Part shown: positions 58,915 to 62,242 of the stretch, piece after piece
Numbering within the stretch: the first letter of the stretch is position 1
How the letters are laid out: every line of letters starts with the position of its first letter
From: Micromonospora rifamycinica
GTDB lineage: Bacteria; Actinomycetota; Actinomycetes; Mycobacteriales; Micromonosporaceae
Assembly: GCF_900090265.1 (NCBI RefSeq)
Contig: NZ_LT607752.1
Span: 2,666,001-2,730,000, forward strand
Direction of reading: 5' to 3'
Length of the DNA: 64,000 nt
Position numbers and translations under genes: made by a program
Notes under the pieces: generated by a model
Database searches by the model: none
Seen by the model: the letters and a program-made list of their open reading frames with translations, nothing else
What the model was told of the DNA's origin: nothing

Positions 58915-59590
58915 CGCCGCGTCGGTCCGGGCCGCCGCCGGGTGGGTCGCCGCCGGGTGCGTGCTGGTCGGCGCGGTCGCGGTGACCGTCGCCGTCGCCG
59001 CCGGTCCCGGCAGCCCGGCGGGCGGGTACGTCAGTGAGGCCGGTGTCCCCGACAGCGCTCTCGCGTCGACGTACCGGATGGGGGTCTTCACCCTGGCGGC
59101 GGCGCTGCTGGCGCTGGCCGCCGCGCTGCCGACGGCGCTGCGGGCCGCGGCCGTCCTGCTCGCGGCCGGCGCGGTCGGCGCGGTGCTCTCCGGCGCGGTC
59201 ACCTGCAGCGCCGGCTGCCCGCTGCCGCCGTTCGAGGCGGCGACCCCGGCGGACCTGGTGCACGGCGGGGCGAGCATCGCCGCGGTCGGGGTGACCGTGC
59301 TCGCGATGCTGGTGATCGGTTTCCTCCGCCCGGCGACGCCGGCCCTGCGGCGGGTGGCCCGGGTGTCCGGGGTGCTGGCGTTGCCGGTGGCCGGGGCGAC
59401 CGCCCTGGGGCTGCTGACGGTGGGTCGCGGCGGCCTGCTGGGCGGGCTGGAACGGCTGCTGCTGGCGATCTGCGTCGGCTGGGGCCTGCTCACCGCGCTG
59501 CTGCTGACCCGGCACCGACCTGCGGCACGGAGCGTGCCGGACGGTGCCGAACATGACGAACCGGTCGCCGCGTCGAGAACGCCCCTGTAA
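58907..59590 (+). CDS. DUF998 membrane protein
   Basis: A 227-residue protein with six hydrophobic segments spread over residues 8-200, the DUF998 arrangement. ASTYRMGVFTLAAALLALAAALP and the CSAGCPLPPFEAATPADLVHG loop, with two cysteines, then VSGVLALPVAG are the recognisable blocks. The start is probably GTG 58907, placed by overlap with the upstream ORF; in-frame GTG 58862 would add 15 residues. Function unknown. Confidence 0.78.
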   Translation: MPDAASVRAAAGWVAAGCVLVGAVAVTVAVAAGPGSPAGGYVSEAGVPDSALASTYRMGVFTLAAALLALAAALPTALRAAAVLLAAGAVGAVLSGAVTCSAGCPLPPFEAATPADLVHGGASIAAVGVTVLAMLVIGFLRPATPALRRVARVSGVLALPVAGATALGLLTVGRGGLLGGLERLLLAICVGWGLLTALLLTRHRPAARSVPDGAEHDEPVAASRTPL

Positions 59591-59636
59591 GGAGCCTCAC
59601 GCCGAGCGCTCCTTCCACCTGCCGAGCGTCCCGGAG

Positions 59637-59642
59637 TAGCGT
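59637..59642 (+). promoter_or_regulatory. -10 box of the leader-peptide transcript
   Basis: TAGCGT lies 9 bases before ATG 59652, so the transcript would begin at or within about 3 bases of the leader start codon. Confidence 0.45.
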
Positions 59643-59651
59643 CGGCTGGCG

Positions 59652-59741
59652 ATGACCAATGTCTGGCACCTCACCGTGCGCCTGTACGTCGATCTCCGAC
59701 GGCAGGCCAGCGGGGTCTGTCCGGCGCAGCCACGCTCCTGA
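59652..59741 (+). CDS. Cys-containing putative leader peptide
   Basis: A 29-codon ORF, 40 bases upstream of the DAACS symporter. The middle reads LYVDLRRQASGVCP, matching the pattern (R/Y)HVDLxRxASxxC of the putative leader peptides placed before sulfur, cysteine and methionine genes in actinobacteria. It starts at or next to the predicted transcription start and ends at TGA 59739. The single Cys codon (TGT, 59718-59720) lies near the end, suitable for ribosome stalling on low cysteinyl-tRNA. Sequence and placement are observed; attenuation is inference. Confidence 0.7.
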   Translation: MTNVWHLTVRLYVDLRRQASGVCPAQPRS

Positions 59742-59781
59742 CGCTGCCCACCGGCCACCCCCTTCAGACCCGGGACACCCC

Positions 59782-61101
59782 ATGTCTTCCACCCTGCGTA
59801 AATTCCCCTTCTCCGCCCAGATCCTGCTCGGCCTCGTCCTCGGCGTGGCCCTGGGCTTCCTCGCCCGTGCCAACGACCTGAGCTGGCTGGCCAGCACCCT
59901 CGACACCGTCGGCGGACTCTTCGTCCAGCTGCTCAAGCTGGCCGTGCCGCCGCTGGTCTTCACCGCCATCGTGATCAGCGTGGTCAGCCTGCGCGGGGTG
60001 GCCAACGCCGCCCGGCTGGCGCTCAAGACGCTGCTCTGGTTCGGGGCCACCGCGCTGATCGCGGTGAGCATCGGCATCGGTCTCGGCCTGGTGACCAACC
60101 CGGGCCGGGGGGTCAGCCTGGACGTCGGCGGCGCCACCGCGCCGAAGACCACCGGCTCGTGGACGGACTTCCTCACCGGCATCGTGCCGACCAACCCGGT
60201 CGGCGCGTTCGTCGAGGGCAACGTGCTCCAGATCGTCTTCCTCGCCCTGGTCGTCGGGGCCGCCGCGCTGCTGGTCGGCGCGGCCGCCGAACCCTTCGTC
60301 GAGGTCAACCGGGCGGTGCTGGCCATCGTGCAGAAGGCGCTGTGGTGGGTGATCCGACTCGCCCCGATCGGCACCCTCGGCCTGATCGGCCACGCGGTCG
60401 CCGCGTACGGCTGGGACCTGCTGGCCCCGCTGGCGAAGTTCACCACCGCGGTCTACGTCGGCTGCGCGGTCGTCCTGTTCGTGGTCTACCCGCTGCTGCT
60501 GGTGACGGCCGCCCGGCTCAACCCGCTGCGCTTCTTCGCCGGTGCCTGGCCGGCGATCGAACTGGCCTTCGTCTCCCGTTCCTCGGTGGGCACCATGCCG
60601 GTGACCCAGCGCTCCGTCGAGCGGCTCGGCGTCCCCCGCGAGTACGCCTCCTTCGCGGTGCCGTTCGGCGCGACCACCAAGATGGACGGCTGCGCCGCGA
60701 TCTACCCGGCCCTCGCCGCGATCTTCGTGGCCCAGGTCTTCGGGGTGGACCTCGGCGTCGGCGACTACCTGCTGATCGCCTTCGTCTCGGTGGTCGGTTC
60801 GGCCGCCACCGCCGGCCTGACCGGTGCCATCGTGATGCTCACCCTGACCCTGAGCACGCTGGGCCTGCCGCTGGCCGGGGCCGGTCTGCTGCTGGCCATC
60901 GACCCGATCCTGGACATGATCCGCACCGCCACCAACGTGGCCGGGCAGGCCGTCGTGCCGACCATCGTGGCCGCCCGCGAGGGCACCCTGGACCGGGACG
61001 CCTACGCCGCCGCCGGCCGGCGGGACCTGACCGACGCCGACGAGACCGCCGACGCCGAGCCGCCGGCCCGCCGCGACGAGCTGACGCCGGCACCCGCCTG
61101 A
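59782..61101 (+). CDS. Dicarboxylate/amino acid:cation symporter (DAACS), possibly cystine
   Basis: A 439-residue transporter of the GltP/TcyP (DAACS) family. FSAQILLGLVLGVALGF opens helix 1; the re-entrant hairpin SRSSVGTMPV, the PFGATTKMDG loop of helix 7 and the second hairpin near SVVGSAATAGLTG form the substrate site, followed by DPILDMIRTATNVAGQ. ATG 59782 has only a weak ribosome binding site, so expression probably depends on the upstream leader peptide. That leader's type, and existence of cystine carriers (TcyP) in this family, suggest a sulfur amino acid substrate; sequence alone does not separate this from C4-dicarboxylate or glutamate. Confidence 0.9.
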   Translation: MSSTLRKFPFSAQILLGLVLGVALGFLARANDLSWLASTLDTVGGLFVQLLKLAVPPLVFTAIVISVVSLRGVANAARLALKTLLWFGATALIAVSIGIGLGLVTNPGRGVSLDVGGATAPKTTGSWTDFLTGIVPTNPVGAFVEGNVLQIVFLALVVGAAALLVGAAAEPFVEVNRAVLAIVQKALWWVIRLAPIGTLGLIGHAVAAYGWDLLAPLAKFTTAVYVGCAVVLFVVYPLLLVTAARLNPLRFFAGAWPAIELAFVSRSSVGTMPVTQRSVERLGVPREYASFAVPFGATTKMDGCAAIYPALAAIFVAQVFGVDLGVGDYLLIAFVSVVGSAATAGLTGAIVMLTLTLSTLGLPLAGAGLLLAIDPILDMIRTATNVAGQAVVPTIVAAREGTLDRDAYAAAGRRDLTDADETADAEPPARRDELTPAPA

Positions 61102-61174: not shown

Positions 61175-62242
61175 ATGAGTTCCCTGTTCACCCCCCTCGC
61201 CCTCCGCGGCGTCACCCTGCCGAACCGGATCGCCCTGGCGCCGATGTGCCAGTACAGCTCCGGCCCGGACGGCCTGCCCACCGACTGGCACCGGGTGCAC
61301 CTCGGCTCCCGGGCCGTCGGCGGTGCCGGCCTGATCGTCACCGAGGCCACCGCGGTCGTCCCCGAGGGACGGATCAGCCCCCAGGACACCGGCATCTGGT
61401 CCGACGCGCACGTCGACGCGTGGCGTCCGGTCACCGCGTTCGTCGCCGGGCAGGGGGCGGTGCCCGCCGTGCAGCTCGCGCACGCCGGGTTCAAGGCCAG
61501 CACCTACCGGCCCTGGGCGCGGCAGCACGGCGGGGTGCCGGACGCCGAGGGCGGTTGGACGCCGGTCGGCCCGGGAGCCGACCCGTTCCTGCCCGACTAC
61601 CGGCGGCCGACCGCGCTGGACTCCGCCGGGATCGCCGGGGTGGTGTCGGCCTTCGCCACCGCCGCCGGCCGGGCCGTCGACGCCGGCTTCGCCGTGGTGG
61701 AGATCCACGCCGCGCACGGCTACCTGCTGCACGAGTTCCTGTCCCCGCTGACCAACCACCGCACCGACGGCTACGGCGGCGACCGGGCCGCCCGGATGCG
61801 GCTCACCCTGGAGGTCGCCCGCGCGGTCCGCGCCACCGTCGGCGAGCAGGTGCCGGTGCTCACCCGGATCTCCGCCACCGACTGGGTGGACGGCGGCTGG
61901 ACGGTGGACGACAGCGTCGCCCTCGCCGCCGAACTCGCCGCGACCGGGGTGGACCTGGTGGACGTCTCCTCCGGCGGGGCGGCGGCCGGAGCCAGCATCC
62001 CGGTCGGGCCGGGCTACCAGGTGCCGATGGCCGCGCGGATCCGCCGCGAGGCGGGCGTCCCGACCGGCGCGGTCGGCCTGATCGTCGAGCCGGAGCAGGC
62101 CGAGCAGATCGTCGCCGCAGGCGAGGCCGACCTGGTGCTGCTCGGCCGGGAGCTGCTCCGCGACCCGTACTGGCCGCGCCGCGCCGCCGCCAAGCTCGGT
62201 GCCGCCCCCGACTGGCCCGACCCGTACGCCCGCGCCTTCTGA
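61175..62242 (+). CDS. NADH:flavin oxidoreductase (old yellow enzyme, YqjM class)
   Basis: A 355-residue FMN-dependent ene-reductase. Cys25 in APMCQYSS (the redox-tuning Cys of YqjM/thermophilic-like enzymes), His178/His181 in EIHAAHGYL (substrate-binding pair), SPLTNHRTDGYGG and LRISATDWVDGGW are intact, with full family length. GGAGG lies 8 bases before ATG 61175. It probably reduces activated C=C bonds, as part of thiol or xenobiotic stress handling. Transcribed in the same direction as the DAACS gene. Confidence 0.95.
   Translation: MSSLFTPLALRGVTLPNRIALAPMCQYSSGPDGLPTDWHRVHLGSRAVGGAGLIVTEATAVVPEGRISPQDTGIWSDAHVDAWRPVTAFVAGQGAVPAVQLAHAGFKASTYRPWARQHGGVPDAEGGWTPVGPGADPFLPDYRRPTALDSAGIAGVVSAFATAAGRAVDAGFAVVEIHAAHGYLLHEFLSPLTNHRTDGYGGDRAARMRLTLEVARAVRATVGEQVPVLTRISATDWVDGGWTVDDSVALAAELAATGVDLVDVSSGGAAAGASIPVGPGYQVPMAARIRREAGVPTGAVGLIVEPEQAEQIVAAGEADLVLLGRELLRDPYWPRRAAAKLGAAPDWPDPYARAF

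Follow-up and report, generated by a model that had tools for sequence, protein, structure and literature searches.

A conserved leader peptide with an invariant UGU codon precedes a DAACS symporter gene in Micromonospora rifamycinica and suggests cysteine-responsive attenuation

We analysed a 64,000-nucleotide (nt) stretch of the 7.01-Mb Micromonospora rifamycinica assembly (contig NZ_LT607752.1, positions 2,666,001–2,730,000; hereafter the window), in which a 29-codon open reading frame (ORF) sits between a DUF998 gene and a gene for a symporter of the DAACS (SDF) superfamily whose closest relatives in a homologue search are those of other Micromonospora. The short ORF (59652–59741; ATG at 59652, stop codon TGA at 59739–59741) encodes the 29-residue peptide MTNVWHLTVRLYVDLRRQASGVCPAQPRS and is preceded by a −10-like box, TAGCGT (59637–59642; form TANNNT), that ends 9 nt ahead of the ATG; this and all other window features described here lie on the forward strand. 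Its conserved core, R-L-Y-V-D-L-R-R-Q-A-S-G-V-C (59679–59720, from the codon columns of 121 distinct leaders), ends in an invariant Cys codon, TGT (59718–59720; codon 23, or +10 counted with the core valine as 0). A C-rich, G-poor spacer of 40 nt (59742–59781; 57% C, 20% G) leads to the symporter gene (59782–61101; 439 residues, ATG at 59782), whose product matches PF00375 with 348.2 bits (E = 7.6e-104; gathering cut-off, 27.9) and is the only match in its genome, both by protein search and by PF00375. Read directly from the sequence, the ORF, box, 9-nt gap, spacer and peptide are as an earlier sequence-only reading had described them, and its description of the main gene's ribosome binding site as weak is fair—the best Shine–Dalgarno (SD)-like run is GGGA at 59772–59775. 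We interpret the ORF as the leader of an attenuator through which cysteine supply would control the symporter gene, and give this reading a probability of about 80%.

The leader is conserved together with the gene. Among the best 80 of at least 575 DAACS relatives in genome contigs, a set in which near relatives are over-represented, 66 loci have a leader of the form R..VDL......C (with the look of R..VDL..R..S..C) ending 35–258 nt before the matched DAACS start, among them all 22 loci from Micromonospora, Salinispora and Plantactinospora. Each of the 66 carries the Cys codon. The sequence-only reading had named absence of the short ORF and its Cys codon from relatives as grounds to reject it, and this check did not turn out against it. 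These counts were made with the pattern [VI]D[LYF]...C, widened after an initial pattern (53/80, including a false match inside a long ORF, L071) had missed leaders reading VDLRLQ; of 1507 control windows of 480 nt, drawn at random from these loci, one contained it. A further 8 of the 80 loci, of Kitasatospora type, have a Cys-rich ORF that is probably a diverged leader; this assignment depends on the mutual similarity of the eight and is weaker evidence than the 66, and the loose criterion applied (at least two Cys) also picked a second ORF, which was set aside, in six of them (L035, L042, L046, L047, L059 and L088). Across the window and these 22 relatives (23 sequences), the 21 distinct leaders differ by 876 synonymous and 517 non-synonymous pairwise codon differences, a non-synonymous to synonymous ratio (pN/pS) of about 0.20, by which measure the leader is under purifying selection at the protein level.

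We also drew a sample blind to the leader, run to balance the bias towards near relatives: 60 genomes of the class, searched with PF00375, yielded 30 DAACS genes in 19 of them, and the 500 nt before each start were scanned (L214 lies at a contig end, without upstream DNA). The motif KMDGCAA[IV]YPA is present in nine of the 30, including the window's own gene (KMDGCAAIYPA; residues 300–310, 60679–60711). A leader with UGU precedes eight of these nine (seven of eight without the window's own), L217 being the exception, and none of the 20 other genes having upstream DNA. The motif-bearing genes form a single group of 18 rows in the tree, with support 99/99 (L205, the window's own copy, and L214, L219 and L221 were left out). 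Judged by this sample and tree, the leader marks one branch of DAACS symporters.

The distance between promoter and leader is also conserved. A TANCNT box stands exactly 9 nt ahead of the leader ATG in 23 of 23 loci (the window's own and L013–L034), and a TANNNT box 4–10 nt ahead of at least one in-frame RTG is shared by 109 of 138 distinct leaders (counted per leader), as against 3 of 260 out-of-frame RTGs (counted per RTG). Because of this spacing, transcription is likely to start at or near the leader ATG, giving a leaderless or near-leaderless mRNA. Since the box keeps a fixed distance from the ATG, the pN/pS is about 0.20 and the pattern occurs in 66 of 80 loci versus 1 of 1507 control windows, the comparison indicates that the leader is not upstream of the symporter gene by chance. 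Neither a sigma-70 consensus promoter nor an intrinsic terminator was found within 59500–59900, an Rfam search gave nothing relevant, and the leader peptide had no Pfam match.

Related leaders provide the link to cysteine. The window leader aligns with positions 2–19 of the 19-position NCBIfam profile NF042934 (cis_reg_atten, 'putative leader peptide') through the shared core VDL.R..S..C (24.6 bits, E = 1.4e-5). Ten DAACS leaders scored 11.4–35.0 bits against this model, and L044 (35.0) was the one to pass the curated cut-off of 27. Genomes with leaders detected by the model at E ≤ 0.01 number 91 of 101 in the family and 116 of 148 in the class; 14 control genomes gave none. Three pairs of cysteine leaders stand back to back on opposite strands (G121:C251:3248-3485, G230:C520:3768-3939 and G285:C7:63750-64039). 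In the M. rifamycinica genome, further NF042934 leaders precede a rhodanese gene (L001) and a gene for an NMT1-type solute-binding protein (L002), and a weaker one (L006, E = 3.96), included by choice since it precedes such a gene, stands before a sulfite/nitrite reductase. Downstream of 90 related leaders we counted rhodanese/3-mercaptopyruvate sulfurtransferase (3MST; 41), DUF4395 (13), sulfite/nitrite reductase (8), ThiS/MoaD (5), CysH (4), luciferase-like monooxygenase (4), DAACS (3) and SsuA (3), plus single cases of APS kinase, PALP and sulfatase; the listing covers 25 of the 29 Pfam families, the rhodanese type is over-represented through the picking of loci, and 2 of 92 leaders have no downstream ORF in the stretch. 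The leader family, as seen in these neighbourhoods, marks mainly sulfur and cysteine genes, with the DAACS gene among its targets. Because related leaders precede mainly such genes, control by cysteine is the best reading, and the comparison supports the cysteine sensing that had been proposed from the window's sequence.

One codon of the leader is fixed beyond what the peptide demands. Leaders were gathered by peptide pattern or profile and never by codon; the family-wide count covered 101 loci, of which 92 fitted the pattern and nine were read by hand (40 of the 101 were hand-picked, and most loci are best-scoring matches), and the leader sets may share species. The +10 Cys codon is TGT in 66 of 66 DAACS leaders, 92 of 92 other leaders and 9 of 9 read by hand, as well as in the leaders of the blind PF00375 sample. 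It is also TGT in all 29 leaders that have a +10 Cys among 30 loci found with the Ms4527A model; the sole exception there, L280 (near 1501), reads VDLARVCSCLGP and has no Cys at +10. Counted as distinct sequences, +10 is TGT in 143 of 143, whereas TGC prevails at other Cys positions (+3, 86/91; +8, 43/48; +9, 6/6; +11, 32/38), with +5 the opposite (TGT in 18/21) and +12 and +13 mixed. The DAACS genes themselves use TGT for 2 of their 154 Cys codons, and long ORFs in these loci use it for 113 of 1018. With the leaders reduced to 19 peptide clusters, the chance of TGT in all is about 10^-13 at the leaders' own rate for their other Cys codons (59/277). The final codon of the Cys series is likewise TGT in the eight Kitasatospora-type leaders. 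Among 51 tRNA matches in the M. rifamycinica genome there is one tRNA-Cys gene, with anticodon GCA (seen in two overlapping loci), and a UGU-specific tRNA is therefore not the explanation. Reading of UGU by this anticodon relies on a G–U wobble, and a shortage of Cys-tRNA should affect this codon more than UGC. With the invariant codon, a single synonymous base change (UGU to UGC) could show whether attenuators respond to codon–anticodon strength and not to the amino acid alone, in organisms with strongly G+C-biased codon use; the finding also supplies an easy sequence criterion for recognising actinobacterial genes under cysteine control.

Attenuators of this kind are known from mycobacteria. 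Polycysteine attenuation was reportedly demonstrated in M. smegmatis in 2020 by Canestrari, as related by citing papers, and the leaders of that work appear to correspond to the NCBIfam models NF042936 (leader_Ms4527A) and NF042933 (leader_Ms5788A). The window leader matched neither model at E ≤ 1; in the window's order, 89 of 101 genomes (that of the window among them) match the Ms4527A model at E ≤ 0.01, seven of them above the cut-off. The resemblance to the mycobacterial leaders lies in a short ORF, here at the probable mRNA start, with one or more Cys codons near its stop, ahead of cysteine or sulfur genes; the window leader differs in having a single Cys codon in place of a polycysteine tract and in preceding a DAACS symporter, and leaders of the Streptomyces orthologues do have several Cys codons. 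In E. coli TnaC, a control residue beside the leader stop is likewise followed by a C-rich stretch; TnaC senses free tryptophan through an arrest peptide, whereas starvation for Cys-tRNA is proposed here. Cysteine leaders were predicted in 2005 for mycobacterial cys operons (PMC1262725): as the accessible part of that paper presents them, the leaders of Mycobacterium, P. acnes and B. longum cbs share Cys codons near the stop, no clear terminator and a suggested role for Rho, and differ in having runs of Cys codons before biosynthesis operons, with no transporter named as a target in that part. Conserved Cys-rich upstream ORFs before cysA2, Rv0485 and nirA were reported in 2015 (PMC4633059), and the accessible part of an S. 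lividans reannotation (PMC8079986) gives eight leader peptides, none called cysteine-dependent. Neither the leader–DAACS pair nor the UGU rule is described among the literature matches listed, which are mostly titles and the beginnings of abstracts. The kind of control proposed is thus already known, and the transporter target and the UGU rule would be new as far as those matches go.

In the proposed mechanism, transcription from the promoter at 59637 would begin on the leader ATG or no more than a few bases from it, so that, as the box and its spacing suggest, a ribosome would initiate on the leader at once. When Cys-tRNA is scarce, it would stall with the UGU at 59718–59720 in its A site, six residues before the stop, and hold the downstream mRNA open so that the transporter is made; when cysteine is plentiful, it would reach the stop, and the gene would be shut off either by RNA pairing that covers its weak start site or by Rho at the C-rich spacer. 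A candidate switch is seen in the Streptomyces orthologues (17 sequences), in which leader segment GCCGCUGUAUG can pair with CAUGCAGCGGC just past the stop; all 11 pairs are invariant, with 100% of alignment cells paired, and are uninformative on covariation. Alternatively, CAUGCAGCGGC can pair with a GCGCCGC-like segment (95.0% of cells), which itself can pair with the SD region (98.3%). The first pairing would free the third segment to cover the SD, and the first segment would be occupied by any ribosome stalled at UGU; masking that segment in the 17 sequences raised the opening of the SD in 13, lowered it in three and left one unchanged. The +5 Cys codon of the Streptomyces leaders, mostly TGT, falls within the segment that pairs with CAUGCAGCGGC. 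These models suggest that Streptomyces spacers act as a translation attenuator. Leader:spacer pairing exceeded plain base shuffles of the spacer in 15 of the 17 sequences of the Streptomyces group; as a universal feature such complementarity was rejected, since p ≤ 0.05 was reached in 17 of 67 loci, 16 of them Streptomyces and the other L030. In Micromonosporaceae, where spacers are mostly short, an RNAalifold consensus of 21 sequences (without L030 and L032, which have long spacers) pairs UGUCC (59718–59722 in the window) with GGACA (59773–59777, overlapping the SD-like GGGA) in 97.1% of cells, which is compatible with sequestration of the SD by UGUCC. The same consensus contains a short stem at the leader end (columns 75–78 with 96–99) in which two pairs are doubly changed in 4 of the 21 sequences.

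Several observations weigh against this picture or parts of it. In place of the polycysteine tracts seen in the mycobacterial leaders that have been studied, the window leader has a single Cys codon, and its NF042934 score is below the curated cut-off; six of the 80 homologue loci have no leader, and neither does L217. Some families downstream of related leaders, found once each, are not obviously linked to sulfur (for example, ROK, SBP_bac_5 and POR). At the RNA level, leader:spacer complementarity in the window was not above shuffles (p = 0.765), masking in Streptomyces took the mean probability of an open SD from 0.26 to just 0.40, or to 0.32 with folding confined to RNA past the ribosome, double compensatory changes were absent from all four helices tested, and single-sequence folds do not favour the UGUCC:GGACA helix. 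The symporter, finally, is globally closer to E. coli GltP than to TcyP, and GltP shares most of its motif in transmembrane segment 8 (TM8).

Several rival accounts of the leader can be set against this reading. That the short ORF is a chance ORF in the 5′ untranslated region of a gene starting at 59659 is vanishingly improbable: a longer DAACS ORF is open from that position, but its start has an equivalent in 0 of 22 relatives, and conservation, purifying selection and promoter spacing all speak for the leader. A second account would have the invariant U serve RNA pairing rather than decoding, as in the RNAalifold consensus of the 21 Micromonosporaceae sequences, where it pairs with the A of the SD-like GGACA. 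We changed U to C in silico at the UGU of 65 DAACS loci (67 sequences were given; L052 and L054 were dropped as their start codon was not found): the change destabilised the fold in 17 and stabilised it in 26 (threshold 0.5 kcal/mol; mean −0.10), and just one locus of the 65 gave the U a probability above 0.5 of pairing with the SD region. We rejected pairing as the cause of the invariant U on these results and regard it as improbable. Because the substitution has no consistent effect on folding and the other wobble positions of the leader core vary (codon columns, 121 distinct leaders), the simplest reading is that the invariant U acts in decoding. Rho-dependent attenuation as in tnaC, in which the ribosome stalled at UGU would shield a C-rich, rut-like spacer and normal termination would let Rho load and end transcription, we consider rather unlikely. 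It fits the position of UGU, 0–7 residues short of the stop in each of the 66 DAACS leaders, the want of an intrinsic terminator around the window leader and the composition of the spacers—C minus G exceeds 0.15 in 47 of 67 (first 80 nt of spacers longer than 100), against 4 of 67 stretches upstream of the leader—and it is the mode proposed for mycobacterial cys leaders by Seliverstov in 2005 (PMC1262725); C-richness, however, predicts Rho sites weakly, and the Streptomyces spacers look more like a translation switch. An arrest peptide, with R-3, V0-D1-L2, R4 and S7 in the exit tunnel holding the ribosome at the UGU in its A site until Cys-tRNA is delivered, would make peptide and codon together the sensor, a possibility that we take seriously without favouring it. 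R-3 is invariant in 121 distinct leaders through five different codons, and D1, L2, R4 and S7 are conserved with synonymous variation ahead of unrelated genes; a simple starved-codon attenuator needs no fixed peptide, and it is only the +10 Cys that must be UGU. This conservation is partly by construction, however, as V0, D1, L2 and C10 are in the collecting pattern and R-3, R4 and S7 in the class-set score; common descent could account for part of it, and diverged Kitasatospora-type leaders still precede the same gene. Combining peptide and codon, we entertain at appreciably less than even odds that actinobacterial cysteine leaders are composite sensors, in which the nascent peptide R..VDL.R..S would set a stall-prone state as one wobble-decoded UGU enters the A site, Cys-tRNA supply would be read through the weaker G34–U3 pairing, and the RNA output devices would differ by lineage; if so, this would hold for the whole family of such leaders.

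As to what the symporter carries, the rival to a sulfur amino acid is that the protein is an aspartate/glutamate symporter merely responding to the sulfur state. In BLAST comparisons with E. coli proteins it is 33% identical to GltP (186 bits), 30% to TcyP (136 bits) and 26% to DctA (141 bits), and its best match of solved structure is the aspartate transporter 9bgz (283 bits). In TM8 of GltPh, an Asp contacts the amino group of the substrate and an Arg its distal carboxyl; the window protein keeps this Arg, and its TM8 motif DPILDMIRTATNVAGQ (residues 374–389, 60901–60948) resembles both TcyP and GltP (window protein, DPILDMIRTATNVAG; TcyP, EPLIDMGRTALNVSG; GltP, DRILDMARTALNVVG), with a Pro as the one residue that separates the window protein and TcyP from GltP, while DctA lacks the Asp. 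A substrate with a second charged end, such as cystine, fits these residues. Against the aspartate/glutamate assignment, which we hold to be plausible but doubtful, stand the presence of this Arg in TcyP too, the association of related leaders with sulfur genes, and the TcyP-like KMDGCAA[IV]YP in all ten actinobacterial relatives aligned. In an alignment with E. coli TcyP, GltP, DctA and SstT, this TM7 motif replaces the NMDGT-type motif: the window's DGCAAIYPA is one residue longer than DG-STLYQS of GltP, like NGCAGLYPA of TcyP. TcyP (b1729, annotated as a cystine/sulfocysteine symporter) shares with the window protein the superfamily, the extra TM7 residue with GCA..YPA, and an acidic residue and Pro before DM.RTA.NV.G in TM8; it differs in its 30% identity and in lying on a separate, very long branch of the tree, whose placement is unsure. 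That GCA..YPA signals cystine transport is an extrapolation from this one E. coli protein. Mainly because the gene belongs to the regulon, and because of one TcyP-like motif, the import of cystine or another sulfur amino acid is the most likely function. The cystine carrier of the sequence-only reading is compatible with these comparisons, in which one unusual substrate-site motif matches TcyP though the overall similarity to GltP is higher, and that interpretation, taken as a whole, is partly supported. A symporter known by its superfamily alone would thereby be placed in the cysteine regulon of Micromonospora, Streptomyces and relatives, with its class of substrate predicted.

Downstream of the symporter gene lies a gene for an oxidoreductase of the old-yellow-enzyme family (61175–62242; PF00724, E = 5.7e-75), probably the second gene of the same transcript; it adjoins the DAACS gene in 18 of the 22 Micromonospora, Salinispora and Plantactinospora loci, and the other 58 loci, within the extent of their sequence stretches, contain no match to it. 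Upstream of the leader promoter, a conserved block, GTAAGGAGCCTCACGCCGAGCGCTCCTT (59587–59614), forms an imperfect, operator-like inverted repeat of the form GTAAGGA.{3}TCAC....TCCTT, in which TCAC is invariant and GTAAGGA nearly so across the 23 loci. The pattern occurs once in the M. rifamycinica genome and was rejected as a regulon-wide operator; the block is possibly the operator of some regulator. Two Streptomyces DAACS genes without the leader, L079 and L084, have within about 110 nt before the matched start a palindrome, CCAAAGAATC.CTTTGG, and, by eye, a TAGCGT box 7 nt before an in-frame ATG; in these two loci the control of the DAACS gene may have been swapped.

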